Below, in pieces: positions 5,669-63,202 of a stretch of 64,000 nt of DNA (within the stretch, counting starts at the first letter, position 1; each line of letters opens with the position of its first letter). A program made the translations under genes and the position numbers. The notes beneath the pieces were generated by a model. That model was given only the letters and a program-made list of their open reading frames with translations. It was not told where the DNA came from and made no database searches. The DNA comes from Gammaproteobacteria bacterium 45_16_T64 (GTDB lineage Bacteria; Pseudomonadota; Gammaproteobacteria; Pseudomonadales; Ketobacteraceae), in contig MABD01000025.1 in NCBI GenBank assembly GCA_002162955.1, positions 1 to 64,000 of the forward strand, in the 5' to 3' direction.

Positions 5669-5862
5669 GGTGCAGAAAACACCGTTTCTATGATAATTGT
5701 CATATAGATCTTCTTAAATTGGTAGGGATACAATATTGCTCGCTATCCCTGTTGGGCTTTTACCTATACTTAACGAGTGAATCCGGGCAAAGGCTGGCCG
5801 TTTATCATTGCGCCTAACAAATTGTCTTATGTTATGGTGCGTTGCTCGTCGGAGGGCTATCC

Positions 5863-6633
5863 ATGAAATTAACAAAAAAAACTATTCTTATTACGGGTGC
5901 ATCGTCAGGTATTGGTCGGAAAATCGCGGAACTGTTGAGTTTGCGAGAGAACAATATCGTGGTGGTAGCCAGGCGAAAGGAATTGCTCGATGAGGTGAAA
6001 GGTATTGTCGAGAATAATGGTAGTAGCTGCTTGGTGATCGCAAGCGATGCATTAGATGAAGAGGCGGCCAGTGATGCCATATCAAAAGCTGTTCGTCATT
6101 TTGGTTGTATTGATGTTGCGTTGTTTAATATAGGTGATGGTCCGTCGTTTAATATGGCGACGGCGAGTGCAGGTTCGATCAAGCAGAATATGCAGGTTAA
6201 CTACGATTCGATGGTGAACTATCTAGTACCGATTATTCAGCATATGAAGATTCAAGAGTCGGGCATTATTGCTCATACCAATTCTCTCGCAGGATTCTTA
6301 GGGCTTCCCATGCAAGGGCCGTATTCTGCTGCAAAAGCGGCGGGGCGAATTCTATTGGACAGCTGTCGAATTGAATTGGCGCCGTATGGTATTCGTGTGG
6401 TATCGCTTTACCCAGGTTTTGTAGCCACGGATCGGGTCGCGTCTGACGGTATCCCTGCTCCTTTTGAAATATCAGAAACGAAAGCGGCGCAGCATATGAT
6501 TAAAGGTATTGAGCGAGAAAAATCTGATTACCTATTTCCACGAACGTTAAAAGGGTTAATTACGTTAGCGAGAATATTGCCGAAACCATTACTCGGCAGG
6601 ATACTCACGTTGGCTACCCCTAGGGATTACTAG
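5863..6633 (+). CDS. Short-chain dehydrogenase/reductase
   Basis: The protein (256 aa) is a classical SDR. The Rossmann nucleotide-binding motif TGASSGIG is near residues 11-18, the catalytic Ser is in the HTNSLAG strand, and YSAAKAA provides the Tyr-x-x-x-Lys pair. It oxidises or reduces an alcohol/carbonyl with NAD(P); the substrate is unknown. The start at 5863 is preferred over an upstream ATG at 5842 because GGAGGG lies 6 bp before it. The C-terminus overlaps the convergent RND gene by 45 bp. Confidence 0.88.
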   Translation: MKLTKKTILITGASSGIGRKIAELLSLRENNIVVVARRKELLDEVKGIVENNGSSCLVIASDALDEEAASDAISKAVRHFGCIDVALFNIGDGPSFNMATASAGSIKQNMQVNYDSMVNYLVPIIQHMKIQESGIIAHTNSLAGFLGLPMQGPYSAAKAAGRILLDSCRIELAPYGIRVVSLYPGFVATDRVASDGIPAPFEISETKAAQHMIKGIEREKSDYLFPRTLKGLITLARILPKPLLGRILTLATPRDY

Positions 6634-8910
6634 TTTGGCAGAAGAGTCCTTACGTTGCCCTAGTAACATTACAAGTGGCAAGAATAAGAATATATCGACA
6701 ATCAATGCAATCGCCAATGTAACAGCACATAGAAAACCTAGGTCTGCATTCGGTTTAAAGTGAGAAAATGCCAGTGTTCCAAAGCATGCAACAAGAACGA
6801 CTGTTGTAGTAAGCAGCGCTTTTCCCGTTGTATTTAGTGCATAGAGTGCAGATTCCCTCGCAGTGTAACCGAGGTTTCGCCTGGCGCGTTGGTATTTTGA
6901 TAATAGATGGATGGTATCGTCGACTACGATACCCAGAGTGATGACCGTGACAATCGATACCGCCAATCCGACTTGTCCGTCTTTAAACCCCCAAATTCCG
7001 AATGCTACGATAGCCGGGACCATATTGGCAAAAATACTAAGAATACCTAATGGAATAGACCGCAGTGCGAAACAGAGTATTAGCGCTATCAGTATAAAGC
7101 CAAGAAATGTTCCGCTGATTAAGCTTCGGCTGTTTTCGATGTTTAACGCAGAGAAAGCCGTCTCTAATGATACCGCATGGGTTTGCATGTCCGCTGGCCA
7201 GTTATCCTGAATCCATACTTCCGAATCTTTTTCAAAAGCAAGCATCTCTCGAGAGCTGGAGGAATAGAGTATGACCTTTATGCGGGTAGCGGTCTTGTCG
7301 AAATTAACGATATGATCCAGGTTGCTACCAAAGGGCAATGAGAGCTCATAGAGTAAAAAATACTGTGAAATCAAATCTTGTTGGTTCGGTATGTGATAAT
7401 AATTTTCATCGTTATCGTGCATTTGTTGGCTGATTGTTTTGATGACTTGATCGAAGCTGGATACATGGGCAACATTCGGTTGCTTCATTGCCCATTGACG
7501 AAAGTCTGACAGTGCATTTAAGTATGTGGGTGAGGTGATTGGTATCTTGTCAGAACCGTTGGCCCGATATTCCAATCGGTGTACACCGGTGAGTCGTTCA
7601 TTCATCAGTGTATTTGTGCGCTTTACTTCCCAAGTATCATCAAAATAGGTATCAATTCTGTCATCTAGAAAGTTATTGGGTAGTTGAGTTGCGATAACTA
7701 AGATAAATCCAGTGATCGTTAACATCGATAGATAAGGTTTGTTAAGGGCTATCAAAAAGAATGCGGGAGGTTTTGCATGGGGTGTGCTAGATAGTTTAAA
7801 AAGAGTGATCCAATGTGGAAGCCAAAATACCGTCAAGGCGAAGGCGATGATTGACCCGGAGGCGGCTAAATTTCCTAAGTATTGGTAGGGTGGTGAGTCG
7901 GATAAATTAAGGCAGAGAAAACCAATTGCGGTAGTAATACTGGTAATGAGCATGGGTTGGAAATTCTCGGCCAAGCTTTGTTTTATGGCGTCATTCCGGC
8001 TGAGATTGTTTGACGTATGATATAGATAAGCCGTAATAAGGTGGACGGCATCCGCCAATACAATGGCAAATAGTGATAGAGGTACAAATGCAATAATAGG
8101 GGTGATAGGAACTCCCATCCACCCTGCAATTCCCAATGTGACTATATTAGTCATTACGATGACGTAAAGAGTCGCCAGTACCATGCCGATGTTGCGTAAG
8201 ATTATTGTCAAAACAATTATCATCAAGCAAAGAACAATGGGTATTTTTGTGGAGAATTCGTTTTTTGTCGCCTGATTTATCGTGTTGGAATAGACAACGG
8301 TACCCGCTAGGTGCACTGACAGTTCGGGGTGTTTGGTGGTGATCTCCGCTGTTAGTTGGTTTGCCCATTGCATGACTTCTGCAACTTGAACTCGGTCAGA
8401 TCGATTAATGTCTAACGTTGCGACGATGGCAGTGACACCTAGATCTTCTCCAAGAATGCTATGAATGAGTCGTGACTCGGAAGCTGCATAGCGTTTAATT
8501 TCTGATAGATCTATAGGGTTTTCTGGGTTAAAGAGTGCGTCGGTATCTAATGTATCATCAATAATTTGTGTGCGATTAAAATGGGTAAGTGAATCTACTT
8601 TTCTAACATGACTCTTGGTCCACAGAGTTTCAGTCAGTTGATGGATTGTTGTTAAGGTTGATTGGACGAATACATCCCCCTGGTCTTGTTTGATGACAAA
8701 CATGATCGCGTTGTTAGCGGTAAACTCTTCCTCTAGGGCGACGACTTCTTGGTATTCAGTGCTTTTTTCATCGAAAAAAATGCGCGTATCAGCATTGGGT
8801 TTTAATGCCAGTACACCGGGGAAAAATGCCAGTAGCATCAGTAAACTTGGCACTACGAACCAGAGGATGCGCCGTGTCGTGTTATTGCGGGTGCTAGAGG
8901 GTTGCGTCAC
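6589..8910 (-). CDS. RND/MMPL-family exporter (two SSD-like halves)
   Basis: The 773-residue membrane protein has the layout of MMPL/hydrophobe RND exporters. There is an N-terminal membrane segment, a large periplasmic loop (about 35-220), a block of about five membrane helices, a second periplasmic loop (about 410-590) and a second helix block. The conserved VVDDTIHLLSKYQRA segment follows in the second half, and DAVHLITAYLY is its counterpart in the first. These proteins use the proton gradient to move lipids or hydrophobic molecules out of the inner membrane. The start is GTG at 8910, which overlaps the stop of the upstream GNAT gene (GTGA). It is the last gene of the operon with the GH3 enzyme, so it probably exports that product. 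A paralogue lies at 60872-63202. Confidence 0.88.
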   Translation of the reverse strand: MTQPSSTRNNTTRRILWFVVPSLLMLLAFFPGVLALKPNADTRIFFDEKSTEYQEVVALEEEFTANNAIMFVIKQDQGDVFVQSTLTTIHQLTETLWTKSHVRKVDSLTHFNRTQIIDDTLDTDALFNPENPIDLSEIKRYAASESRLIHSILGEDLGVTAIVATLDINRSDRVQVAEVMQWANQLTAEITTKHPELSVHLAGTVVYSNTINQATKNEFSTKIPIVLCLMIIVLTIILRNIGMVLATLYVIVMTNIVTLGIAGWMGVPITPIIAFVPLSLFAIVLADAVHLITAYLYHTSNNLSRNDAIKQSLAENFQPMLITSITTAIGFLCLNLSDSPPYQYLGNLAASGSIIAFALTVFWLPHWITLFKLSSTPHAKPPAFFLIALNKPYLSMLTITGFILVIATQLPNNFLDDRIDTYFDDTWEVKRTNTLMNERLTGVHRLEYRANGSDKIPITSPTYLNALSDFRQWAMKQPNVAHVSSFDQVIKTISQQMHDNDENYYHIPNQQDLISQYFLLYELSLPFGSNLDHIVNFDKTATRIKVILYSSSSREMLAFEKDSEVWIQDNWPADMQTHAVSLETAFSALNIENSRSLISGTFLGFILIALILCFALRSIPLGILSIFANMVPAIVAFGIWGFKDGQVGLAVSIVTVITLGIVVDDTIHLLSKYQRARRNLGYTARESALYALNTTGKALLTTTVVLVACFGTLAFSHFKPNADLGFLCAVTLAIALIVDIFLFLPLVMLLGQRKDSSAKLVIPRGSQREYPAE

Positions 8911-9995
8911 AGCCGTGAGACCTCGATATAGAGAGGTCGTGTGTGATCGAGGCTTTTTCTGGCATCTTCGCCAAATCCTGCTAAATAGTGATTACTTTTC
9001 ATGGTTCGATAAATAAAGCCTTTAGTGGCTGCCTTAATAGGGTCGTTGTCCGCGATACCCAGTATCATAGTTTTATCACCAGAGGAAGACAATGATCGTC
9101 TAACATAACTCAATAAGCCGGAGAGTATATCTGGGCGATTATCTTGAGTGATGATTGAATGTAATGAGACATAATCAGCCACTGATTTCTTTAGCGGAAG
9201 GGGAAAGCCGCCAAAAAAAGTGCACCATATATTGTAAAATGGCCGAAGAAATATCATCCAAGGGGGATACTCTACGACCCGTGTTTGTTTGAAATCCTTT
9301 TGTCGCCACGTTCCAATAAACCCCACCAGCATATTGTTTTCAAAAGCAAGAAAGTAGTCGCTAATTGATAGACCGCGGTAATAACTATCTTTGCCGATAC
9401 GTTGAAAATCGTAAACGGGATAAAATTGCTTGTTGGCCGCTTCTCTATTGAACAAGGTTTGTATTGCAGGGATATCAGCATTATCGGCACGGCGAATAGT
9501 CAATGATGACTTGGGTGCAAAGTCGTAGGTCGTTGACATAATGTAGGTAACCAGTTTCCCATAGGGGTGAAATGTCGCTAAGCCGGATCGGCCACTGGCA
9601 ACAGCCGTTAATGATGCGGCATTCTCCTCTAGGATAACAATTTGGGAGTACTCATCGGGCTCCATGACTTTTTGACTTTCTTCGATAACATCTTGTATCA
9701 GATGTTTTCCTCGGTGGTTTTTCGCAATTCGTAGATCATGGGCATACCGAATAGCACGTCTCTTACCGTTAACAAAGACATCTCTTTTACCATTGCTATA
9801 GACCGCGACGGCATTTCCCGTTGACTCATCTTCCGCCAACGTAATAAACGGTTGTTGGGATGCTATTTCTGCGCCATGAAAGAAATTGGGTTGGCGCTCA
9901 AAGTTCAGTGTGACGATACCTTGTTGTGGAGTACTTTCCAATAATGCCAGTAACTTATTACTGTCGGATGCTTGTGCGGGTTTCAGTTGAATCAT
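8907..9995 (-). CDS. GNAT-family acyltransferase, two-domain
   Basis: The protein (362 aa) reads as two GNAT-like halves. The N-terminal half has an AHDLRIAKNHRGKHL block resembling acetyl-CoA-binding motif A (RxxGxG variant). The second half begins near SLTIRRADNADIPAIQTLF. It probably transfers an acyl group from CoA to an amine, with unknown substrate. The start at 9995 forms an ATGA overlap with the stop of the GH3 gene, so a longer frame reaching 10040 is unlikely. Its own stop overlaps the RND start. Such overlaps imply translational coupling and equal expression with GH3 and the exporter. Confidence 0.75.
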   Translation of the reverse strand: MIQLKPAQASDSNKLLALLESTPQQGIVTLNFERQPNFFHGAEIASQQPFITLAEDESTGNAVAVYSNGKRDVFVNGKRRAIRYAHDLRIAKNHRGKHLIQDVIEESQKVMEPDEYSQIVILEENAASLTAVASGRSGLATFHPYGKLVTYIMSTTYDFAPKSSLTIRRADNADIPAIQTLFNREAANKQFYPVYDFQRIGKDSYYRGLSISDYFLAFENNMLVGFIGTWRQKDFKQTRVVEYPPWMIFLRPFYNIWCTFFGGFPLPLKKSVADYVSLHSIITQDNRPDILSGLLSYVRRSLSSSGDKTMILGIADNDPIKAATKGFIYRTMKSNHYLAGFGEDARKSLDHTRPLYIEVSRL

Positions 9996-11683
9996 AGTGT
10001 CACCACATCTTCGGGGGAGAGCAGAGGAACGCTCTGGCATTGTTGTCGTAGAGCGTAGACAAACGCATCAGGCAAACCGGTATTCCAGAGCACTAAGGGT
10101 TCTATTTTAATATTGCCTTTCGCCATGCCGCGTTGTAGGCAGCGGTACATATAGAAGTCGCTAGCGTTGTTGCTGATAACGATTTTTGCGGGGGCTATTT
10201 GCTTGAGTTCTCGGGCGAGTTGGTAATGGAAGTTCTTTTGTAACTCTTGTTCTAGTGCCGTACTCAGTACCCTTTCATTAGGCATCTGATTATGGCTGGG
10301 TTCGCATAGTAATACGTAACACCCGCGAGAATCATTTGGAACAACTTGCTGCCAATGATTTCCGGGTATCGCGACTAAAGAGACTGGGGTGACTGAAAAT
10401 TCTTTGGTGAACTGGGTAATGATGGATTGCGATGTCTCCGCAGATATTTTTTCTCCAGCAAGGTCTGTCCCATCTAAACGCCCTCTAAATTCAAAGCAAG
10501 GGCACTGATTGAGAAATCCATCCACTACCAATTTGTCATTGAGTTTGTAACGTAAAAAACCGCTACCGGTGGTGAGTAATGGGGATACCTCCATGCCTTT
10601 CTCTAGTTTCCAAGCGGGGACAACATCATTGCTAGATAAATCTAAGAATTCATAATAGTGACTGTTCACGGATAGCGGATAGCGATCGCCAAACGGAATG
10701 GTTACTACACCCTCTGTAGCCCAGAGCCCCTTGCCTTGAAAGGCGGCATTGGGAAAAAGATGCTGCAATTTATCGGCCCAAATTTTACTGCTGGCAGTAT
10801 CCCAACTGCTAATAAGCGCGAGATCAGGCCAAAGGCGATTGAGGAACTCAGTGTCGACGGTGTTTCCTAGGCTTTTTAGCAGTGCTGCAGTGCTGGCTGA
10901 TGAGGGGCAACGTGTTTTTTCTAGTGACGCGGAACGATCGAGCCAGTGTCCTCGATGAAGAACGTCTATCAGTTCATCTCGATGCTCAATAATTTGTTCA
11001 AATAACGACAATGCAAACGTAGGGCTCCATACCGATAACATCGTTAGATCTCTACGACTCAATAACCACGCGAGTGAGGCGAATAACGTATCTTCTGAGG
11101 ACTTCGCTTGGGCGACGGTATCGGGTACTGCCATATATTGCCCGGCTATCCAGCGTTTCCACCAAGGAAGTACTTTCAGGTCGTCGTTAACATTTTCATC
11201 AACATCGCCTCTCAGTGACGTCGGAATCCAGGATACAGACCAATAATGATAGCCTCGGTTGATACCTGGAGTGGACTGATAGATATCACCAATCCATGCC
11301 ATCAGTGCGCAGTTAATTTCAGCCAAAAAATCCTGGGAGTAGGGGATCCATTTAACGGCGGAGGTAGATCCGCTGGTGGGTTGGAATCGCTCGGTAGGGC
11401 TGGATGTAAGTGCTTGTAGACCATTATCTCGATCGGATGCGATCCAGGGTTTCCAGCTATCATAATTGGAAATAGGTATGTCGTTGGCAAAATCTTTCCA
11501 GTTCATTGTGGGTGACAATGATGAGCCCGTATGTGCGATGGCGTCGCCGGACTTGGAGAGTATTCGCTGCAACGCGTTCTTTTGAACAGTTTGTACGTCC
11601 TGTGTTGCTTTTACAAATCGCTGTTGATGACTGTTACACCAGAATTGTGTTGCGCGATGCAGGGCTCGATTTATGTTCGTCAT
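9992..11683 (-). CDS. GH3-family acyl-adenylating enzyme (auxin-responsive GH3 homologue)
   Basis: This 563-residue protein has the ordered motifs of the GH3/JAR1 branch of the acyl-adenylate-forming superfamily. These are the phosphate loop TSGSTS (near residue 105), the acyl-binding WATEGVVTIPF segment, YEFLDL, the hinge region GFLRYKLNDKLVV, and the pair CPCFEFRGRLDGTD then GEKIS. Known GH3 enzymes activate a carboxylic acid with ATP and conjugate it to an amino acid; bacterial members are poorly characterised. ATG 11683 has GAGTGG about 7 bp upstream. An in-frame GTG at 11692 is possible but lacks a site. It is flanked by two GNAT-like genes and an exporter in one operon, which suggests synthesis of an acyl conjugate. 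Confidence 0.85.
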   Translation of the reverse strand: MTNINRALHRATQFWCNSHQQRFVKATQDVQTVQKNALQRILSKSGDAIAHTGSSLSPTMNWKDFANDIPISNYDSWKPWIASDRDNGLQALTSSPTERFQPTSGSTSAVKWIPYSQDFLAEINCALMAWIGDIYQSTPGINRGYHYWSVSWIPTSLRGDVDENVNDDLKVLPWWKRWIAGQYMAVPDTVAQAKSSEDTLFASLAWLLSRRDLTMLSVWSPTFALSLFEQIIEHRDELIDVLHRGHWLDRSASLEKTRCPSSASTAALLKSLGNTVDTEFLNRLWPDLALISSWDTASSKIWADKLQHLFPNAAFQGKGLWATEGVVTIPFGDRYPLSVNSHYYEFLDLSSNDVVPAWKLEKGMEVSPLLTTGSGFLRYKLNDKLVVDGFLNQCPCFEFRGRLDGTDLAGEKISAETSQSIITQFTKEFSVTPVSLVAIPGNHWQQVVPNDSRGCYVLLCEPSHNQMPNERVLSTALEQELQKNFHYQLARELKQIAPAKIVISNNASDFYMYRCLQRGMAKGNIKIEPLVLWNTGLPDAFVYALRQQCQSVPLLSPEDVVTL

Positions 11684-11697
11684 TGTCGCCACTCAAT

Positions 11698-12468
11698 TTA
11701 TTGTGATTGCATGTCTTCGGAAAACGCGGGCTGTTTAGACTTAGCTGTCTTTTCGCGAATCACTTTTTTAATGAAATTGATGAGTGCGGGGATTTCCATT
11801 AATCCAACGCAAGGCAATTCTGTTCCCCGACGCCATTCTGGATTTTTTTCTTCGAAGAAGTGAATCTTAGGTTGGGTCGTTTTTAGGTCGTCGATAATCT
11901 CGGCGACACCATCTTTTAGGTTCTGATATTGATTCCCAAAATCCAGGATCTTATCTTCTTGATTGTAATACTCTGGATAGAGTTTATTACAATAAGCATC
12001 AACTAAGTTGGCTAGATCAGAATCCTCGTGATCTATTCGTGGGTAATAATTAACGAAATTGTTGGCAAGTAGTAGGTAGGTTTTATATCCCTTACTGATA
12101 AGCAACCAAAAGAAAGGCGTGAGTGGATTCTTTAACTTAATCCGTAAAAAGAACATTGCCCAGGTAAATTGCCAGCGCCGTGACCCCCAATATTTCTTCT
12201 CAAGAATAGTATCGCCGCTAAATATTCCATAGGCTTTTTTACCTTTATATTCTAAGTCGAATACGGCGAGAGTGCTGAATCCAACGATGCGGTTGGTTTC
12301 CCTATCGGTAATAAGTAATACGTGTTGTTTTTTGTATATGTCGCTAACGAATGTTTCAAAATCTGCATTGTTATAGTACTTAACGAAAACCTCGTGCATT
12401 TCATATACTTCAGTAACAGACAGTGCTTCGATACTCTTTACGACAGAATTAGGCTCAAGAGAACTCAT
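11698..12468 (-). CDS. GNAT-like protein, first gene of the GH3 operon
   Basis: The protein has 256 residues and no signal peptide. Its first 100 residues have the strand-helix order of an acyltransferase (LLITDRETNRIVGFSTLAVF, then a GIFSGDTILEKKYWGSR block that could bind CoA). The remainder is unlike GNATs I know and may hold the acceptor site. It starts at ATG 12468 behind a good AGGAGT. Its stop lies 14 bp before the GH3 start, so it heads the four-gene operon. The family assignment is only moderately sure. Confidence 0.6.
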   Translation of the reverse strand: MSSLEPNSVVKSIEALSVTEVYEMHEVFVKYYNNADFETFVSDIYKKQHVLLITDRETNRIVGFSTLAVFDLEYKGKKAYGIFSGDTILEKKYWGSRRWQFTWAMFFLRIKLKNPLTPFFWLLISKGYKTYLLLANNFVNYYPRIDHEDSDLANLVDAYCNKLYPEYYNQEDKILDFGNQYQNLKDGVAEIIDDLKTTQPKIHFFEEKNPEWRRGTELPCVGLMEIPALINFIKKVIREKTAKSKQPAFSEDMQSQ

Positions 12469-12848
12469 GGGTTACTCCTTTTATTTTTTGTTTTTATTGA
12501 ATAAAAGAAATATTGGGTTAACCTAAAAATATATTTCTTTTGGTCATTGCTTGGATGAGGTGATAGCGAGCAGAGGATAGAGTTTGCGAAGGCCAAAAAG
12601 AACCCTCCTATGGGAGGGGGAATAGCATTAGGGTAGTGGAAATTGATGATAACAATGGAATAATTGAACTTGTTCACATAACAAAAAAATTACGATTATT
12701 GTGATTATTCTATTTGTAACTCGGTGTTAAATAATACTGATACTATTTTTGAAAACTCCTCGATACGTAACGCATAAAAAAAGGCTAGTCGACAAAGTCA
12801 ACTAGCCTTTTCATTACACTAATGAGAGGTGTGAATTACCCCTTTAGT
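12469..12848. other. Intergenic region upstream of the GH3 operon
   Basis: This 380-bp AT-rich stretch holds no gene I can support. It should contain the minus-strand promoter of the GH3 operon. A small GC-rich hairpin (12603-12618, CCCTCC against GGGAGG) lies in the probable leader of that operon. The terminator of the next minus-strand gene lies at 12776-12811. Confidence 0.5.
12776..12811 (-). terminator. Rho-independent terminator of the beta-propeller lipoprotein gene
   Basis: Read on the minus strand, a GC-rich stem (GGCTAGT paired with ACTAGCC, extended by GTC/GAC around a short loop) is followed by a T-rich run. It lies 37 bp after the stop of the gene at 12849-14081. Confidence 0.85.
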
Positions 12849-14081
12849 TTACTGATTGTTAAACTTCGCCAAGTAGGCGGTAAACGAGCCATTATGCTGC
12901 GCGCTAGTGGCAACAAAAATTCCATCGCCGGATACGATCGCATCACCCGTAGTTGTGGTTGTGCCACTTGATATTGACAATGTACCAATGGACGAACCAT
13001 TGTTATCAAATTTTTCGCCAGTGCCGTCACCGAAGATATAGATGTCATTAGATGAATCGATTGCTAGCGTTCTGACTACACCACCACTGGTAGACTTGCT
13101 CCAGGTTACACTTCCACTTTCCGAGTACTTTACGAGTTTTCGGCCGTAGTCATTGGACGCGACGATGACAACATTTCCATCACTATCAAGCGAGATAAGT
13201 GGTTTAGCGTCAAAGGTACCCGCGCTAGAAGACGGTTCACTAATAAATCGCTCCCATTCCAGGTTTCCATCTGCGCTGATTTTGACAAGTCGGTAGCGGT
13301 CATCGTCATAGCTGTGGTGTGCAACATAGACTTCGTCAAAGCGGTTGATCACCATGTCGGTCCAGTGTCCAACATTATCAGGATTGGCTACTTTCCATAG
13401 CAAGCTTCCTGCGCTGTCATGTTTTGCAACAAAAGCATGGCCGCTGGTATATATGTTGCCTAGCGCGTCAGGTTCAACGTCCCATACCGCTTCATTTTCT
13501 AGATTGATCTCAAGCTGAAGGGTTCCTTCTGTATCGAAGACACGGGTCATGTCGCCGCCAACGTAGACCAGACCATTTGAAAATTCCACATCCCAGGTCT
13601 TGTTCTCTTCGCTAAAGGTTTGTACCCACTGTTGTTCACCGTATTGGTTAATCTTGAGCAAGAACTCGGTGTAAGGGTAAGGCGCTCCCTCACGCTGATA
13701 GAGGTTGCCCGCAACGTAGATATTGCCGTCATTATCAACCACAGAGTCCTTAATGCTATCGTCGGTATCGAATGTACCGTCGTTGATGTCGTATTGGTTT
13801 TTCCATAGTAGGTTGCCAGCGCTGTCGTGTTTTGCGACATAGGCGTTCGCTTCTCGATTGGCTCCAGGGACGATGGTTTGTCCAGAGCTGATTAAGTCGC
13901 CATAGGAATCTTGGCTTAGGCTGTTGATCCAGTCGATTCGATCTTCTGTTTCGTCAGCGGAAAAAAACGTTTCCCATACCGGGCTGGCTGCATTATCACC
14001 ACCACATCCGCTGAGAGAGAGTGAGGCGAGAGACACCAAGGCAAGAGAGGCTAGCGATTTTTTGTTCATTTCCATTTTCAT
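12849..14081 (-). CDS. Lipoprotein with beta-propeller (SBBP-like) repeats
   Basis: The 410-residue product begins with a lipoprotein signal peptide (lipobox LSGC near residue 26, followed by Gly-Gly-Asp). The rest is a series of about 40-60-residue repeats with patterns such as AYVAKHDSAGNLLWKNQY, DNDGNIYVAGN and FDEVYVAHH, as in seven-bladed SBBP/PQQ-like propellers. It is probably an outer-membrane-anchored binding or scaffold protein without an obvious catalytic residue. AAAGG lies 5 bp before ATG 14081. A slightly longer frame to 14099 is not needed. Confidence 0.8.
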   Translation of the reverse strand: MKMEMNKKSLASLALVSLASLSLSGCGGDNAASPVWETFFSADETEDRIDWINSLSQDSYGDLISSGQTIVPGANREANAYVAKHDSAGNLLWKNQYDINDGTFDTDDSIKDSVVDNDGNIYVAGNLYQREGAPYPYTEFLLKINQYGEQQWVQTFSEENKTWDVEFSNGLVYVGGDMTRVFDTEGTLQLEINLENEAVWDVEPDALGNIYTSGHAFVAKHDSAGSLLWKVANPDNVGHWTDMVINRFDEVYVAHHSYDDDRYRLVKISADGNLEWERFISEPSSSAGTFDAKPLISLDSDGNVVIVASNDYGRKLVKYSESGSVTWSKSTSGGVVRTLAIDSSNDIYIFGDGTGEKFDNNGSSIGTLSISSGTTTTTGDAIVSGDGIFVATSAQHNGSFTAYLAKFNNQ

Positions 14082-22410: not shown

Positions 22411-23069
22411 ATGGAGAATGATAGAGCACGTAGCTCGGTTATAGGGAGTTTACACAACAGTGTACTCATTAACGTGTTCTTGGTGTTGTTACTCGCGGTA
22501 TTTTTTATCGTTTCATCACTCAATGTAAAGGTCCACAGTAAAACCTTAGATAGCTATATCGACGATAAGTATACACTCGATAGGTTAAATACGCTGATAA
22601 CAGAAACCGCTGAGAGTTTACTTCGTCTATTGGTTGTGGAGACTGATCGTAAATATACTCATAAAAATTTTCTTACTATTCTTAGTCAAAGTGAAGATTT
22701 TCAAGCAGCGTTTGATCAATTCTACGATGCCACTATTAAACGTAAAGGAATTAGTGAACAGTCATTGGCGCGGGAAATTGAACCTGTCATTACGGAATTA
22801 CGAAGAGATATTGTTAAGTGCGTGTCCCTGTATAGGGCTGGGAATATTGTTGCTGCGAGAAATTACTATAATAAGCGTTTATATGGCCGTACAAAACAGG
22901 TACGACGTTTTACATAAGATGCGGTGTGTTCGGATTTCTCATTAACAGGCGCATAAGTCGATCTATCATTGATCCGTTACTGACACTGGATAATACAATG
23001 AAGGCCCTGACGATGGGAGATTACAAACATAGAGCAGAGGTGATACGGAATGATGAATCTGTCTGTTGA
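22411..23069 (+). pseudogene. Decayed paralogue of the downstream hybrid histidine kinase
   Basis: The first 168 residues (22411-22917) align with residues 1-171 of the kinase at 23274, sharing for example the RSSVI start, the [10 protein letters not shown] block and the GRT-QV end. A stop then follows. About 40 codons (the end of the sensor and most of TM2) are missing. Similarity resumes in another frame at 22929-23069, reading FGFLINRR, then IIDPLLTLDNTMKALTMGDY, which is the HAMP region. It stops there, without histidine kinase or receiver domains. The truncated sensor part could still be translated as a membrane protein. Confidence 0.8.
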
Positions 23070-23160
23070 TCATTAATAGGGTACTGTAAATAAACGTTTT
23101 TTCGATTATTTGTATGACAATCGGGCAGTTTGAAGTCATAAAAGAATAAGGGTTATTACA

Positions 23161-23210
23161 AAATATCATATAGATGATCGTTTTCTCACGTAGATGTGGT
23201 CAATACTTAA
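23161..23210 (+). promoter_or_regulatory. 50-bp upstream block, copy 2 (before the intact kinase)
   Basis: This is the second copy of the block at 21354-21403; its last base is 63 bp before the kinase start codon. Both ends are identical in sequence and spacing, so the two genes could share one regulator or promoter type. Confidence 0.6.
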
Positions 23211-23273
23211 ATGTACTGCCCGTACGTATACTTACGTGTGACATTGAGGCCCTAGAAAATAATTAGGTGTAAA

Positions 23274-25814
23274 ATGGAGAACAAGAATCGTAGTTCAGTT
23301 ATTGATGGATTGCATAGAAGTGTACTGGCCAACGGCTTATTGATGACAATGTTGGTCATACTATTTTCAGCGTCTTTGGTAAATATTCAATATCACAGTG
23401 ATAGATTAGACCGTTATATCGAAGAAGAACAAACATTACGTGATCTTGAAGTGCTGATTAATGAAACGGGAGAGAGAATCCTAAAATTACTGATAGCGGA
23501 GGGTAAGAAGATCACTTTTGGGGGGGAAGAGAAGGATAATATTCTTAATATATTAGCTAGTAGCGAGAATTTTCAATCAGCGTTTGATAAATACTATGAC
23601 GCGACGCTAAAGCGTAAGGGAATCAGCGAACAATCCCTTACCATCGAGATGGAACCCGTTATTACTGCATTACGAAGTGATATCGTAAAAACCGTATCAC
23701 TTTACAACGATGGTGATGTGGGTTTGGCAAAGAACTACTATTTTGAACGATTATCCGGGAGGACGAATCAAGTAAAATTATTTACACGGGATGGATTGCA
23801 TACCATAGAACGAATTATTAATCGCAGTAAGTCGGAGTTAGAGAATATTGCCATCTATACGCTGGCAGTAGTTGTCGTATTTTCTTTTGTTATCGTGATA
23901 ATTGGATTTTTGTTTAATCGAAAATACAGTGATCAAATCATTGAACCGTTGTTTACTCTGAAGTCGACCATGAAGGCTATTGCAGAGGGTGACTATTCCT
24001 ATAAAGCAAAGGTATTAAGAGAAGATGAATTTGGTGATCTTTCTGTCACGTTGAATAATTTGTCTGAGGAAATATGCAGGCAGAGAAAGTCGGTAGAATG
24101 TGCCAAGGATACGCTAGAGAAGAAAGTAGAAATACGTACCTTTGAATTGAATAAAGCGAAGGAGTATGCGGAGTCATCAAATATAGCGAATATCGCTAAG
24201 AGCAATTTTTTGGCAAATATGAGCCATGAAATACGAACGCCAATGAATGCGGTGTTGGGAATGTTAGGGCTTCTTGAACGTTCAGACATGTCGAAGAGTC
24301 AAATGAAGAAAGTAGTGTTGGCGAAAAATGGAGCAGAATCGTTACTCACAATACTCAATGACATTATCGATTTTTCGGCGATTGAGTCAGGGACAATGTC
24401 GTTGGAATGTACGCAGTTTAATCTGATAAAATTCCTTGAGGATTTTATTGAATCTATTGCAATAGAAGCAGAGACCAAAGGGTTGGAAATTGTTCTAGAC
24501 GTAGTGGGGATAGATCAGTATTTAGTTAAAGGAGATCAAGTTCGGCTACGCCAAGTTATGGTGAATTTGGTAGGTAACGCCATAAAGTTCACGGAAAAAG
24601 GGGAGGTGGTTGTTAGAGCAGAGATGCTTCCAGGTAATGGCAATACGAGTATTTTTTGTTGTGTAATAAAGGACACAGGAATAGGGGTTTCGAAGGAGCA
24701 TCAGCAAATATTATTTAGTGTGTTTAGTCAGGTGGATGGGTCGAGCTCTAGAAAATATGGAGGAACAGGCTTAGGGTTAGCTATTGTGAATAACCTATGT
24801 GATCTAATGGGAGGGGGCGTTGTTGTTGATAGTATTGAAGGTATTGGTAGTCGATTTGAATTTAGGGTTGAGCTAGAGCAATGCGCTGATAAGCCATCTA
24901 TGACATCGGAGATTGATCTGGAAGGTTCATGTTTTATGATCGTTGATCAAAATGCAAGTGTGCGTAAAGTCTTGTGTCAACAAATCGAATATTGGGGGGG
25001 AGAGGTGGAACATGCTGATGATATAACGTCGGCACAGTCGATAATCGAGGAAAGGGCTCGTCATGGAAAGTCAGATATTGACTTAATGTTCGTTGAACTC
25101 GAACTACCCATGATTCAGGGAATTCATTTGGCGAAAATAATCCGTGATAGCCCTGCAACGGATAGTATAGCCCTTGTTGCATTGACAACCCTTAAAGAGA
25201 ACAGAGATTCGGCCTATTTTCGTGAAAATGGGTTTAATTCCTATTTATCTAAGCCGATAATAAATTCCGAAATATTACGAGTGATTTCCCTACTCAAAAT
25301 TTGTGCTGTGCCGAGATCGCTGAGTTGTGAATATACGGAGTTTAGTCCAATCGTATCGCCCAATGGATTGCAGACTTCAAGTGCACGCATTCTACTGGTA
25401 GATGATAGCGAAGAACACAAAGTGCTCATTTGCGAACTATTGGAGGAATCTCCATATTCTATTTCGATTGCAAATAATGGAAAAGCAGCAATCAAAACAC
25501 TGCTACTGGCGGGCGATGAGCATCCTTTTGAGCTCATTATTATGGATTGTCAGATGCCTATCATGGATGGTTATGTCGCAACGCAAAAAATACGTGAGGG
25601 GGTTGCAACAGAGCGTTACAAGGATATTCCTATTGTTGCGCTAACGGCCAATGCCATCCTCGGTGATAAGGAAAAATGTTTGGAGGCCGGGATGAGTGAT
25701 TATTTAACCAAACCAGTTCAGCCCGATGATCTAGTCTTGATGTTAGAAAAATGGATGCTAGTAAAAGAGAATCCTGTCGATCAGTCGTTATCCGAGACGA
25801 ATAATCTGCATTAA
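23274..25814 (+). CDS. Membrane hybrid histidine kinase (sensor-HAMP-HisKA-HATPase-REC-REC)
   Basis: The 846-residue kinase has two membrane helices (about 18-38 and 191-213) around a small helical periplasmic sensor, then HAMP (about 215-270). The phospho-acceptor His318 is in [10 protein letters not shown]. The ATPase domain has its N box around Asn435 and GTGLGLAIV near 497. The first receiver (about 552-670) is degenerate: the expected Asp is Glu608, in VELELPM, and the acidic pocket reads VDQN. The second receiver (about 704-825) is intact, with Asp758 in MDCQMP. There is no output domain, so a separate HPt or response regulator is expected; none is adjacent. It follows its own truncated paralogue and an NHL protein. 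Confidence 0.92.
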
Positions 25815-60871: not shown

Positions 60872-63202
60872 TTAGGAGGCTGCATCCGCTGTTGTAAGGA
60901 CACTGGGCTCTTCGGTTACTTGTGTATCATCATATAACTTCAATAAAATAATCGGCAGAAGTATCAGGTCAACAAGAACAGCGCAGACGATGGTGATGAT
61001 AGTGATCGCTGCTATATCTTGATTGGGGGTGAAGTTGGAAAATAACATAGAGCCAAATCCAACGCTCATCATGACGGTAGTGAGCATCATTGCTACCCCG
61101 ACGGTATCCATGGCATAACGTACGGCTTGCTCATTACGATAGGCTAACTGTTCTTTGGCATACTTGTATTTGGATAGGAAGTGAATGGTATCATCTACCA
61201 CAATGCCAAGGGTTAACGTGATACCGACAGACATACCAAACCCGACTTTGCCATCGATTAACGCCCATATCCCGAACGCCATTGCTGCAGGGAAAAGATT
61301 GGGAATAACGCTAACCGCACCTAAGGTTAGCGATCTAAACATAAAGATCAGTAGCACGGAGATTGCTAATAAGGCGGCGACAAACCCTTTCGATAGGTTA
61401 TTCACGTTAGAGTATTGCATATGAGCAAAGGCTAGACCGGAGCTGCCGATAGTTGCTGCTTCGTCGGATAATTGTCTTGCATCGAGCCAAGTTTGTAAGT
61501 CTTGCTCAAGGTCTATTAGGTTTTTGTCGGAGAGTTTATTGTATACCGCAACAACACGGCTTTCGGAGCGGTCAAAATTCATTACGTTATTGAGGTCTTG
61601 TCCAAACGGCAGTGACATTTCGTACATCAGCAGATATTGAGAGGCAAGGTTTCGTGTCTCTGGCGCGCGATACCATGCGGGATCATCTTGATGCATATTT
61701 TTATTGAGGGTTTTCATGACTTCGAGTAACGAGGTGGTGAAGCGTAGCTCTTCTCGTTGACCAAGATAAATATCCAGATCTTCCAGTAGTTGTAAGTATG
61801 CAGGGTCCAAAATGCCACCAGGGTTTGCCGCAGGAATACTAATGTTAATTACAACCGAGCCACCGATGGTGTTCGTGAGAAAATCGATATCCTTACGGAC
61901 CTCTAATCCCTCATCAAAGAACTCCACAAAGTTATCGTCCAGAATATTTTTGGGAATCATCGCGGATAGACTGACGATGATAATCGCAAAGAGTACAATG
62001 ATTTTATTCCCATTTCGTTGATAGAAAGGAACCAACTGACCAATTTTAGGAATGTTGGAAACACCTTTGGCCTTCGATGGAAGGTAATAGACGACGGCGG
62101 GTAAAAACGTCAATGACGCTAACATAGCAAATACAATTCCGATGGCAGATGCAGTACCCATGTGAGCAAAAGGAGGAGAGTCGGCAAAATTTAATGCAAG
62201 AAAACTTAATGCGGTAGTTAAGCTGGTAAATATAATGGGAGTGAAATTGATCTCTATACTTTTTTGTAGGGCTGTTTTCTTATCAAGTCCTTCCGCGAGT
62301 CCTTGGGAGTAATTCACCATTAAGTGGATACAATCGGCCATTGCCAGAATAATGATAATGGCAGGGCTGTTTATCAATACGGGAGAGAGCTTTACCCCGG
62401 TCCACAATACGCCGCCCATGCCAGCGATAATAGATAGTACGCTGGTGGCCATGGCGGCAACGTTACCGACTAAGTCGCGTAAGATAAGTGTCAGGAATAG
62501 AAAAACAATAATGGTGGCAATGGGGAATGTAGTTTTTCCATCGGCCTGTACAATTTCGGGAATAGAGACTTCTAATACGACACCACCAAGGACACGAAAA
62601 TCAATATCTGGATAGTTCGGACTGATGCTAGCAATGCCTTGTTTGACCTGGTTAACCACATCAATCGCGGCATTCGCACTATCGTCTGGCGGCAGATTGA
62701 GAGTGATGGAAACCAGCGATATATCGCCCTCATGGGTAAGTAGGTAGTCTTCTAATCCGGCTTTGTTTACGGCATAGTCTTTTCGCTGTATGACCTCAGC
62801 GGTGGATAACGCTGCGTCTTCCTCAAACAAGTACTCAACCACGAGTTCGTCATCGTTGACTTGGGTATAGAGATGGTTAGTGATGGACTCAACCCGTTGT
62901 GAGTAGGGAACTTGCCAGCCGAACTCGGTAATCTCTCGAATAGCCGCTAAGCTACTTGGGCTGAAGATATCCTTGTTTTTTGGTTCGATCATTACCAGTA
63001 TGTTTTTATCACTGGCAAACTCGTCTTCAATTTGTATTAGGTTGGCGAGACTTGTGTCATCAGGGCGAAAAAAATCCCGCTGATTCGCAGAGAATTCGGT
63101 GTCGATAGCACCTAGGCCCAATAGGGCGGATGCGATAACAATAAATAGAATACTACTGATTCGGTGGTTCATGACCCACGCGGCAAAATGCTTAGCAATC
63201 AT
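60872..63202 (-). CDS. RND/MMPL-family exporter (paralogue of 6589-8910)
   Basis: The 776-residue protein shares the two-half architecture of the first exporter: a first periplasmic loop (about 30-215), a helix block, a second loop (about 415-600) and a second helix block with VVDDTIHFLSKYKYAKEQ. The first-half match is DCIHLMVNYSQGL. Identical short stretches (for example SLPFG and NFD) suggest common descent. Its substrate is probably a hydrophobic molecule. It follows an AraC-type regulator (same strand) and precedes a Crp-type one, either of which might control it. Confidence 0.88.
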   Translation of the reverse strand: MIAKHFAAWVMNHRISSILFIVIASALLGLGAIDTEFSANQRDFFRPDDTSLANLIQIEDEFASDKNILVMIEPKNKDIFSPSSLAAIREITEFGWQVPYSQRVESITNHLYTQVNDDELVVEYLFEEDAALSTAEVIQRKDYAVNKAGLEDYLLTHEGDISLVSITLNLPPDDSANAAIDVVNQVKQGIASISPNYPDIDFRVLGGVVLEVSIPEIVQADGKTTFPIATIIVFLFLTLILRDLVGNVAAMATSVLSIIAGMGGVLWTGVKLSPVLINSPAIIIILAMADCIHLMVNYSQGLAEGLDKKTALQKSIEINFTPIIFTSLTTALSFLALNFADSPPFAHMGTASAIGIVFAMLASLTFLPAVVYYLPSKAKGVSNIPKIGQLVPFYQRNGNKIIVLFAIIIVSLSAMIPKNILDDNFVEFFDEGLEVRKDIDFLTNTIGGSVVINISIPAANPGGILDPAYLQLLEDLDIYLGQREELRFTTSLLEVMKTLNKNMHQDDPAWYRAPETRNLASQYLLMYEMSLPFGQDLNNVMNFDRSESRVVAVYNKLSDKNLIDLEQDLQTWLDARQLSDEAATIGSSGLAFAHMQYSNVNNLSKGFVAALLAISVLLIFMFRSLTLGAVSVIPNLFPAAMAFGIWALIDGKVGFGMSVGITLTLGIVVDDTIHFLSKYKYAKEQLAYRNEQAVRYAMDTVGVAMMLTTVMMSVGFGSMLFSNFTPNQDIAAITIITIVCAVLVDLILLPIILLKLYDDTQVTEEPSVLTTADAAS

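Follow-up and report, generated by a model that had tools for sequence, protein, structure and literature searches.

Layout of the operon and its recognizable protein families

The window, as we call the whole stretch of 64,000 nucleotides analysed here (contig MABD01000025.1 of Gammaproteobacteria bacterium 45_16_T64, positions 1 to 64,000), carries on its minus strand a four-gene operon which combines a GH3-type enzyme with two GNAT-fold proteins and an RND exporter. The first gene (11698..12468) encodes GNAT1, a single-domain GNAT acyltransferase of 256 amino acids with a long insert ahead of its last strand. It is followed by the gene for a GH3-type adenylate-forming amide synthetase (9992..11692; 566 amino acids, or 563 if the ATG at 11683 is used), by that for GNAT2, a double GNAT of the N-myristoyltransferase (NMT) type (8907..9995), and by that for an exporter of the MMPL/HAE3 kind (6589..8910; 773 amino acids). 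The coordinates and the translational coupling of the four genes given in an earlier note on this DNA were all confirmed in the sequence: the TAA stop codon of GNAT1 occupies 11700-11698, with an in-frame GTG at 11692 and an ATG at 11683, 14 bp downstream; the stop codon of the GH3 gene overlaps the GNAT2 start codon at 9995 in an ATGA; and the stop codon of GNAT2 overlaps the exporter start at 8910 in a GTGA. The start at 9995 is more likely than the one at 10040 chosen by the open reading frame (ORF) tool, because residues 1-10 of the GNAT2 model are of low confidence (mean 54) and the former fits the coupling. Scans for transcription signals were uninformative (14 promoter-like sites against 16.4 in shuffled sequences, and 8 terminator-like sites against 6.3).

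The GH3 protein is readily assigned to its family. Its N-terminal, central and C-terminal domains all score above the Pfam cut-offs (PF03321, E 1.5e-37; PF23571, 3e-15; PF23572, 3.8e-9), and a profile search of the PDB with an alignment of 56 rows (55 of 57 non-redundant proteins and the window's own) retrieved plant GH3 structures, the best being 6avh_A (E 1.2e-18). Within the first ATP motif, running from T106-S-G-S-T-S to K114 (11351..11377, minus strand, as derived from the residue numbers), T106, S107, G108, S109 and K114 are identical in 56/56 aligned rows, as are the named residues of motif regions 2 (E327) and 3 (G378..R381-Y382..D386). All three motifs can be recognized, the second only partly, since it is unlike the YGSSE of plant enzymes. 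The ATP-site residues, whose loss would have spoken against the proposal of the earlier note, are thus kept, and the sequence suggests an enzyme that would use ATP to join an acid to an amine, both of them putative. In the GH3 tree, the window's row is a long branch within a supported clade of 60 rows (100/99) that contains open forks, a position that carries a warning of long-branch joining.

The exporter matches the MMPL family of Pfam in two stretches, one for each half of the protein (E 7e-29; 101.3 bits against a cut-off of 20.5), and its best NCBIfam match is TIGR00921 (HAE3), at 2.2e-37 and under the cut-off of that family. The end of its gene is overlapped by 45 bp, tail to tail, by the 3′ end of a plus-strand gene for a short-chain dehydrogenase (5842-6633), and a second MMPL-type exporter gene, whose product is 30% identical to the operon exporter, lies at 60872-63202 of the window.

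Neither GNAT1 nor GNAT2 matched a Pfam family at E values up to 0.1 or any NCBIfam family, and a sequence search of the PDB with the GNAT1 alignment (57 of 62 non-redundant proteins and the window's own) returned nothing better than E 0.29. Nevertheless, the predicted structure of GNAT1 has the GNAT fold, as the view of the first gene as an acyltransferase had presupposed, and its Foldseek list is headed by an aminoglycoside acetyltransferase. Viral contigs scanned with the GNAT1 alignment gave 94 pattern matches and no relative, and a viral origin was discarded as an explanation. Second GNAT1 copies are found in other genomes of the order (loci L137, L138 and L139), where they are solitary, with no GH3 or GNAT2 gene within 19-20 kb.

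GNAT2 and the end of its chain

The earlier description of two 'GNAT-like' proteins stands as far as the folds are concerned, but that of the second has to be corrected: the predicted structure of GNAT2 consists of two GNAT domains which span the whole chain, and its leading structure matches are NMTs, as are all 50 entries shown by VIA. The identity to these enzymes is 10-13%, and a sequence search of the PDB with the GNAT2 alignment (50 of 55 non-redundant proteins and the window's own) found nothing better than E 0.35. The NMT build was reported to be limited to eukaryotes until a structure search of 2025 revealed double GNATs of the NMT type among bacteria and archaea, for which the available part of that report gives no function (PMC12219266).

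In most rows of the structure comparison, residue 377, at which the aligned part of the GNAT2 model ends, is matched by residue 492 of the Aspergillus fumigatus NMT or residue 496 of human NMT, and the C-terminal residue of human NMT1 is described as catalytic (PMC7048800, available part). Because the chain end of GNAT2 is paired with the C-terminal residue of NMTs, conservation of the chain end was to be expected and was checked. Forty-eight of the 51 aligned GNAT2 proteins end in Arg-Leu (in the window, Arg-Leu-stop at 8907..8915, minus strand) and 50 end in the same alignment column. The corresponding two counts are 5/58 and 11/58 for GNAT1 and 4/56 and 8/56 for GH3. The count was repeated on all GNAT2 genes with a stop codon in the 80 loci of the wider survey described below, where 70/74 end in Arg-Leu (the exceptions being L066, L080, L089 and L122), and in a sample that included more distant copies 13/16 did so, the others ending in RW (L135, on contig C38 of the source genome), RI (L144) and IH (L040). 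Both the codons for this ending and the stop codons vary among loci, and the ending persists even when the following gene is on the opposite strand (e.g. L097 and L118); consequently, overlap with that gene does not explain it. We propose, on the basis of the model, that the C-terminal carboxylate of GNAT2 would lie in the active site and could serve as a base. The protein is best described as NMT-type in its predicted build, and we do not file it as an NMT, given that it has no sequence-family match and that its candidate substrate is deduced indirectly.

An enzyme of this build could conceivably modify a peptide. GNATs do so in the selidamides and the lipidated lanthipeptides, a predicted tandem GNAT is described as lipidating the peptide of nostolysamide (PMC13060382, available part), and the predicted fold of GNAT2 is of the NMT type. 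However, we regard acylation of a ribosomal peptide by GNAT2 as highly improbable, since none of the four genes encodes a peptide-modifying enzyme (Pfam) and no convincing precursor was found. The window and 82 loci were examined for small ORFs close to the core genes, of which 61 recur in at least three loci. Of these, 59 lie within longer genes, many of them upstream, in the divergent gene for an AraC-type regulator in Alcanivorax; the two exceptions, each seen in no more than three loci, extend into the beginning of GNAT1.

Conservation of the gene set and related clusters

Matches to GH3 and GNAT1 were found in 12 and 10, respectively, of a set of 96 genomes comprising the source genome and its relatives. 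Alignment searches of 390 genomes of the order detected GNAT1 in 35, GNAT2 in 32 and GH3 in 44. A close relative of GH3 (497 bits or more) is present in 29 of the 390, all of which have both GNAT1 and GNAT2. In 28 of these 29, a manual count based on the coordinates shows the three genes as one cluster, which in genome G329 also includes an intervening gene for an outer-membrane factor; in G299, GNAT1 resides elsewhere on the chromosome, apart from GH3 and GNAT2. The remaining GNAT1-positive genomes are G001, G002, G003, G004, G025 and G111, and in G003 and G025 (the latter cut by a contig end) a Rieske gene separates GH3 from a divergent GNAT2 match. A wider scan with the GNAT1 alignment, covering one genome per species (84,980), yielded 419 relatives. 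Among the best 80 loci of these 419, GNAT1 was scored in 79, GH3 in 78, GNAT2 in 76 and all three in 75, on one strand in 74 cases; in the one locus scored without GNAT1 (L089), the gene is merged into a longer ORF. The locus titles include Alcanivorax, Oleispira, Thalassolituus, Marinobacter, Moritella, Moraxellaceae and Aquabacterium. These co-occurrence counts place the arrangement far beyond chance. Between-locus distances are congruent among GNAT1, GH3 and GNAT2 (74 rows) and RND proteins (59 rows), with r of 0.77-0.90, which 0/500 permutations reached. The short-chain dehydrogenase gene next to the operon was matched in only one of the 80 loci, L080.

The exporters that adjoin this core are more varied. 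An AcrB-type RND gene was found in 60/80 loci, with some matches at only 21-26% identity, and 59 of 91 loci have a gene of an adaptor family, whereas an MMPL-type exporter accompanies the window operon and its relative L039. In L144, the place is taken by an MFS pump accompanied by an outer-membrane factor and an adaptor of the HlyD type, and L143 encodes an MFS protein. That different pumps adjoin one and the same enzyme core suggests that the product of the core is what the pumps move. In L039, which belongs to a genome of the same family, the operon (7590-13069) looks interrupted, with GNAT1, GH3 and the exporter split over several ORFs and GNAT2 whole, which could be due either to decay or to an assembly error.

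Many of the loci contain a further acyltransferase. A gene from one of three HxxxDG acyltransferase families is present in 55/80 loci, and the HxxxDG motif was found in 40/40, 9/9 and 8/8 members of these families. The sole match in the source genome (31% identity) is on contig C38, in a locus (L135, 5954-12762) which comprises a second GNAT2, the HxxxDG acyltransferase and a gene assigned to the FeeM family of N-acyl amino acid synthases (PF21926, 8.2e-9, above the cut-off), and which ties GNAT2 to N-acyl amino acid chemistry. Genome G002 has a similar arrangement (L136), in which the small GNAT matches general acetyltransferase families and not FeeM. Close by on C38, the opposite strand carries an MMPL gene and two further genes, one from the fatty-acid-hydroxylase family and one from the Asp/Arg-hydroxylase family; these two families include the ornithine-lipid hydroxylases OlsE and OlsC.

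The hydroxylase-family genes, which adjoin the second GNAT2, count in favour of the main alternative to a released product, namely that the operon builds a membrane aminolipid, with GH3 in the role of OlsH and thus forming an N-acyl amino acid, GNAT2 or another acyltransferase performing the second acylation and the RND protein placing the lipid in the outer membrane, so that the product would belong to the envelope. MMPL-type proteins move lipids, in keeping with such a role. A further argument in favour of this alternative is the precedent of OlsH itself (PMC12493201, available part). Nevertheless, an envelope aminolipid seems to us rather unlikely: the four genes include no OlsI-type alpha/beta-hydrolase (Pfam), and many relatives carry an adaptor together with AcrB-type or MFS pumps, which as a rule export and do not place lipids. 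Moreover, an OlsB-like gene is located elsewhere in the source genome, on contig C26, and because of it ornithine lipid, which we considered as a candidate product, is not an obvious one.

Other clusters connect the core with fatty-acid building or tailoring enzymes. For instance, a second GNAT1-GH3 pair of the source genome (L035, contig C47, 8135-19999) is embedded in a larger cluster which encodes three Rieske proteins, an SDR, a ferredoxin, a fatty-acid-hydroxylase-family protein and a GMC oxidoreductase, along with weak matches to AurF-like and hexapeptide proteins, and similar clusters are present in the same-genus genomes G002 and G004. In L080 (4340-13343), the genes that adjoin GNAT1 and GH3 encode an acyl-activating enzyme, a ketoacyl synthase III and epimerase-like, SDR-type and HxxxDG proteins, and a divergent GNAT2 (23% identity) lies on the opposite strand. 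A locus from a Desulforapulum metagenome-assembled genome (L114, 9962-20673) holds GNAT1 and GH3 together with two weak AMP-binding matches, a membrane protein of the LPG-synthase family and an AcrB-type pump; GNAT2 was not found in the DNA of this locus. Enzymes of fatty-acid building and tailoring are not what would be expected if the operon served self-protection or drug efflux, in which case the pump would remove a toxic acid or amine once the GNATs and GH3 had modified it. Both GNATs and RND pumps are frequently involved in resistance, and the aminoglycoside acetyltransferase at the head of the GNAT1 list would agree with such a function, but three or four acyl-transferring or amide-forming enzymes in constant order exceed the needs of detoxification. 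Detoxification and peptide lipidation are both less likely, and we consider the former improbable.

A candidate pathway and its known counterparts

Taken together, these observations make it probable, if far from certain, that the operon produces a fatty-acyl or other acyl amide of an amine or amino acid independently of a peptide synthetase and then exports it. As its fold suggests, GNAT1 would N-acylate a small amine or amino acid from acyl-coenzyme A or an acyl-acyl carrier protein. GH3 would adenylate a carboxylate with ATP, either that of a fatty acid or that of the GNAT1 product, and join it to an amine, and GNAT2, judging from its predicted fold and conserved end, could attach another acyl group at an amine. 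An O- or N-acylation by an HxxxDG acyltransferase, the gene for which is absent from the window operon, may follow in many relatives. Finally, the RND/MMPL pump would move the product out, as indicated by its linkage to the core and by the replacement of exporters among loci. The presence of these parts, the way they are coupled and their conservation are observed, and from them we infer the order of these steps, their substrates, the product and its export. A more specific proposal, which we advance tentatively and as possible rather than probable, is that the operon represents a widespread pathway for an exported lipo-amide, independent of peptide synthetases, in which a bacterial NMT-type enzyme acylates a GH3-built small molecule with the carboxylate of its own chain end as the base.

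Several observations weigh against a pathway of this kind. The GNAT fold does not fix the acyl donor, and both substrate and product are arrived at by deduction. The 20 of the 80 loci without an RND gene comprise five on short or cut contigs, L080, which has a distant MMPL gene, and 14 from Burkholderiales/Aquabacterium with no such gene in the locus DNA, two of which also lack GH3 and one of which is a short contig. Likewise, genes resembling the three HxxxDG families are missing from the locus DNA in 25/80 loci and from the window operon. In ten of the 44 genomes with a GH3 match, that match is of the weaker kind and GNAT1 was not detected, and hence GH3 proteins in general are not bound to the set. 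The OlsB-like gene on contig C26 is accompanied by a neighbour of about the size of PlsC (judged by size alone), distance congruence may reflect shared descent, as it was computed without an unlinked control gene, and absences are not firm, given that the source genome is 96.98% complete and that the searches score only some of the first-look candidates.

The claim of the earlier note that the genes are functionally linked is well supported by the conserved order, without which it would have been hard to sustain, by the fold of GNAT1 and by the ATP-site residues of GH3. Its further suggestion, that an acylated small molecule or lipid is made and exported, is supported in part: the product and its export stay a matter of conjecture, since the genes do not reveal a metabolite and the 14 Burkholderiales loci show no RND gene in the locus DNA. 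If true, the pathway would be a compact, conserved route by which many marine and oil-associated bacteria make and export a fatty-acyl amide. It would also extend bacterial GH3 chemistry beyond OlsH, the sole characterized case that we found, and provide a testable bacterial representative of the NMT build. The more specific proposal, if correct, would give bacterial NMT-type double GNATs, as far as the literature consulted goes, their first assigned role and would point to a so far unseen metabolite class of oil-associated genera such as Alcanivorax, Thalassolituus, Oleispira and Marinobacter. Elsewhere in the window (22411-25814), a 168-amino-acid ORF resembles in its first part, by eye, the start of the next ORF, which is sensor-kinase-like and 846 amino acids long, as a truncated tandem copy would.

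Several known systems can be compared with the operon. In the mycobacterial couples of PapA and MmpL, an adenylating enzyme, an HxxxDG acyltransferase and an RND exporter are encoded in one locus; unlike these lipid loci, the operon has no polyketide synthase and no HxxxDG gene among its four genes, and GH3 replaces the FadD-type ligase. Unlike FeeM and the LuxI-type synthases, GNAT1 has no match to either family (Pfam, NCBIfam); as far as comparison of its predicted structure goes, it may be of FeeM or LuxI type. GNAT2 shares with NMTs the predicted fold of two GNAT domains over the entire chain, and its conserved end is matched by the C-terminal residue of NMTs, but it differs in its low identity, its lack of a Pfam match, its bacterial origin and its place in a biosynthetic operon. 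The bacterial double GNATs 3n7z and 7q3a (MAB_4324) stand near the NMTs in its Foldseek list (E 2.5e-13 and 6.9e-13, ranks 4 and 12) and are missing from the 50 entries that VIA shows. The plant GH3 amido synthetases (GH3.15, GH3.12 and JAR1) have the same three Pfam domains as the window's enzyme, match it in the structure profile search and keep the ATP-site residues, but they are of low identity, come from another group of organisms and act on substrates that need not be those of the bacterial protein. In the literature surveyed, mostly as titles and the beginnings of abstracts and with most subscription papers outside it, no publication was recognizable as dealing with this operon. The nearest known enzyme to the window's GH3, likened to it by description and not by sequence, is OlsH of Singulisphaera acidiphila, a GH3-like enzyme that makes N-acyl ornithine (PMC12493201). 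According to the available part of that report, OlsH resembles the operon in being a bacterial GH3-like, ATP-dependent enzyme beside another acyl-transferring one, and nucleotide-binding motifs are recognizable, if divergent, in both. The partners of OlsH, however, are the alpha/beta-hydrolase OlsI and the methyltransferase OlsG, whereas here GH3 is accompanied by two GNATs, often an HxxxDG enzyme and an exporter. The earlier note, which knew of no characterized bacterial pathway with this set, needs a correction here: a bacterial lipid pathway with a GH3-like enzyme has been published. Compared with OlsH, the closest characterized bacterial case that we found, the set described here differs in its partners and in its NMT-type enzyme.

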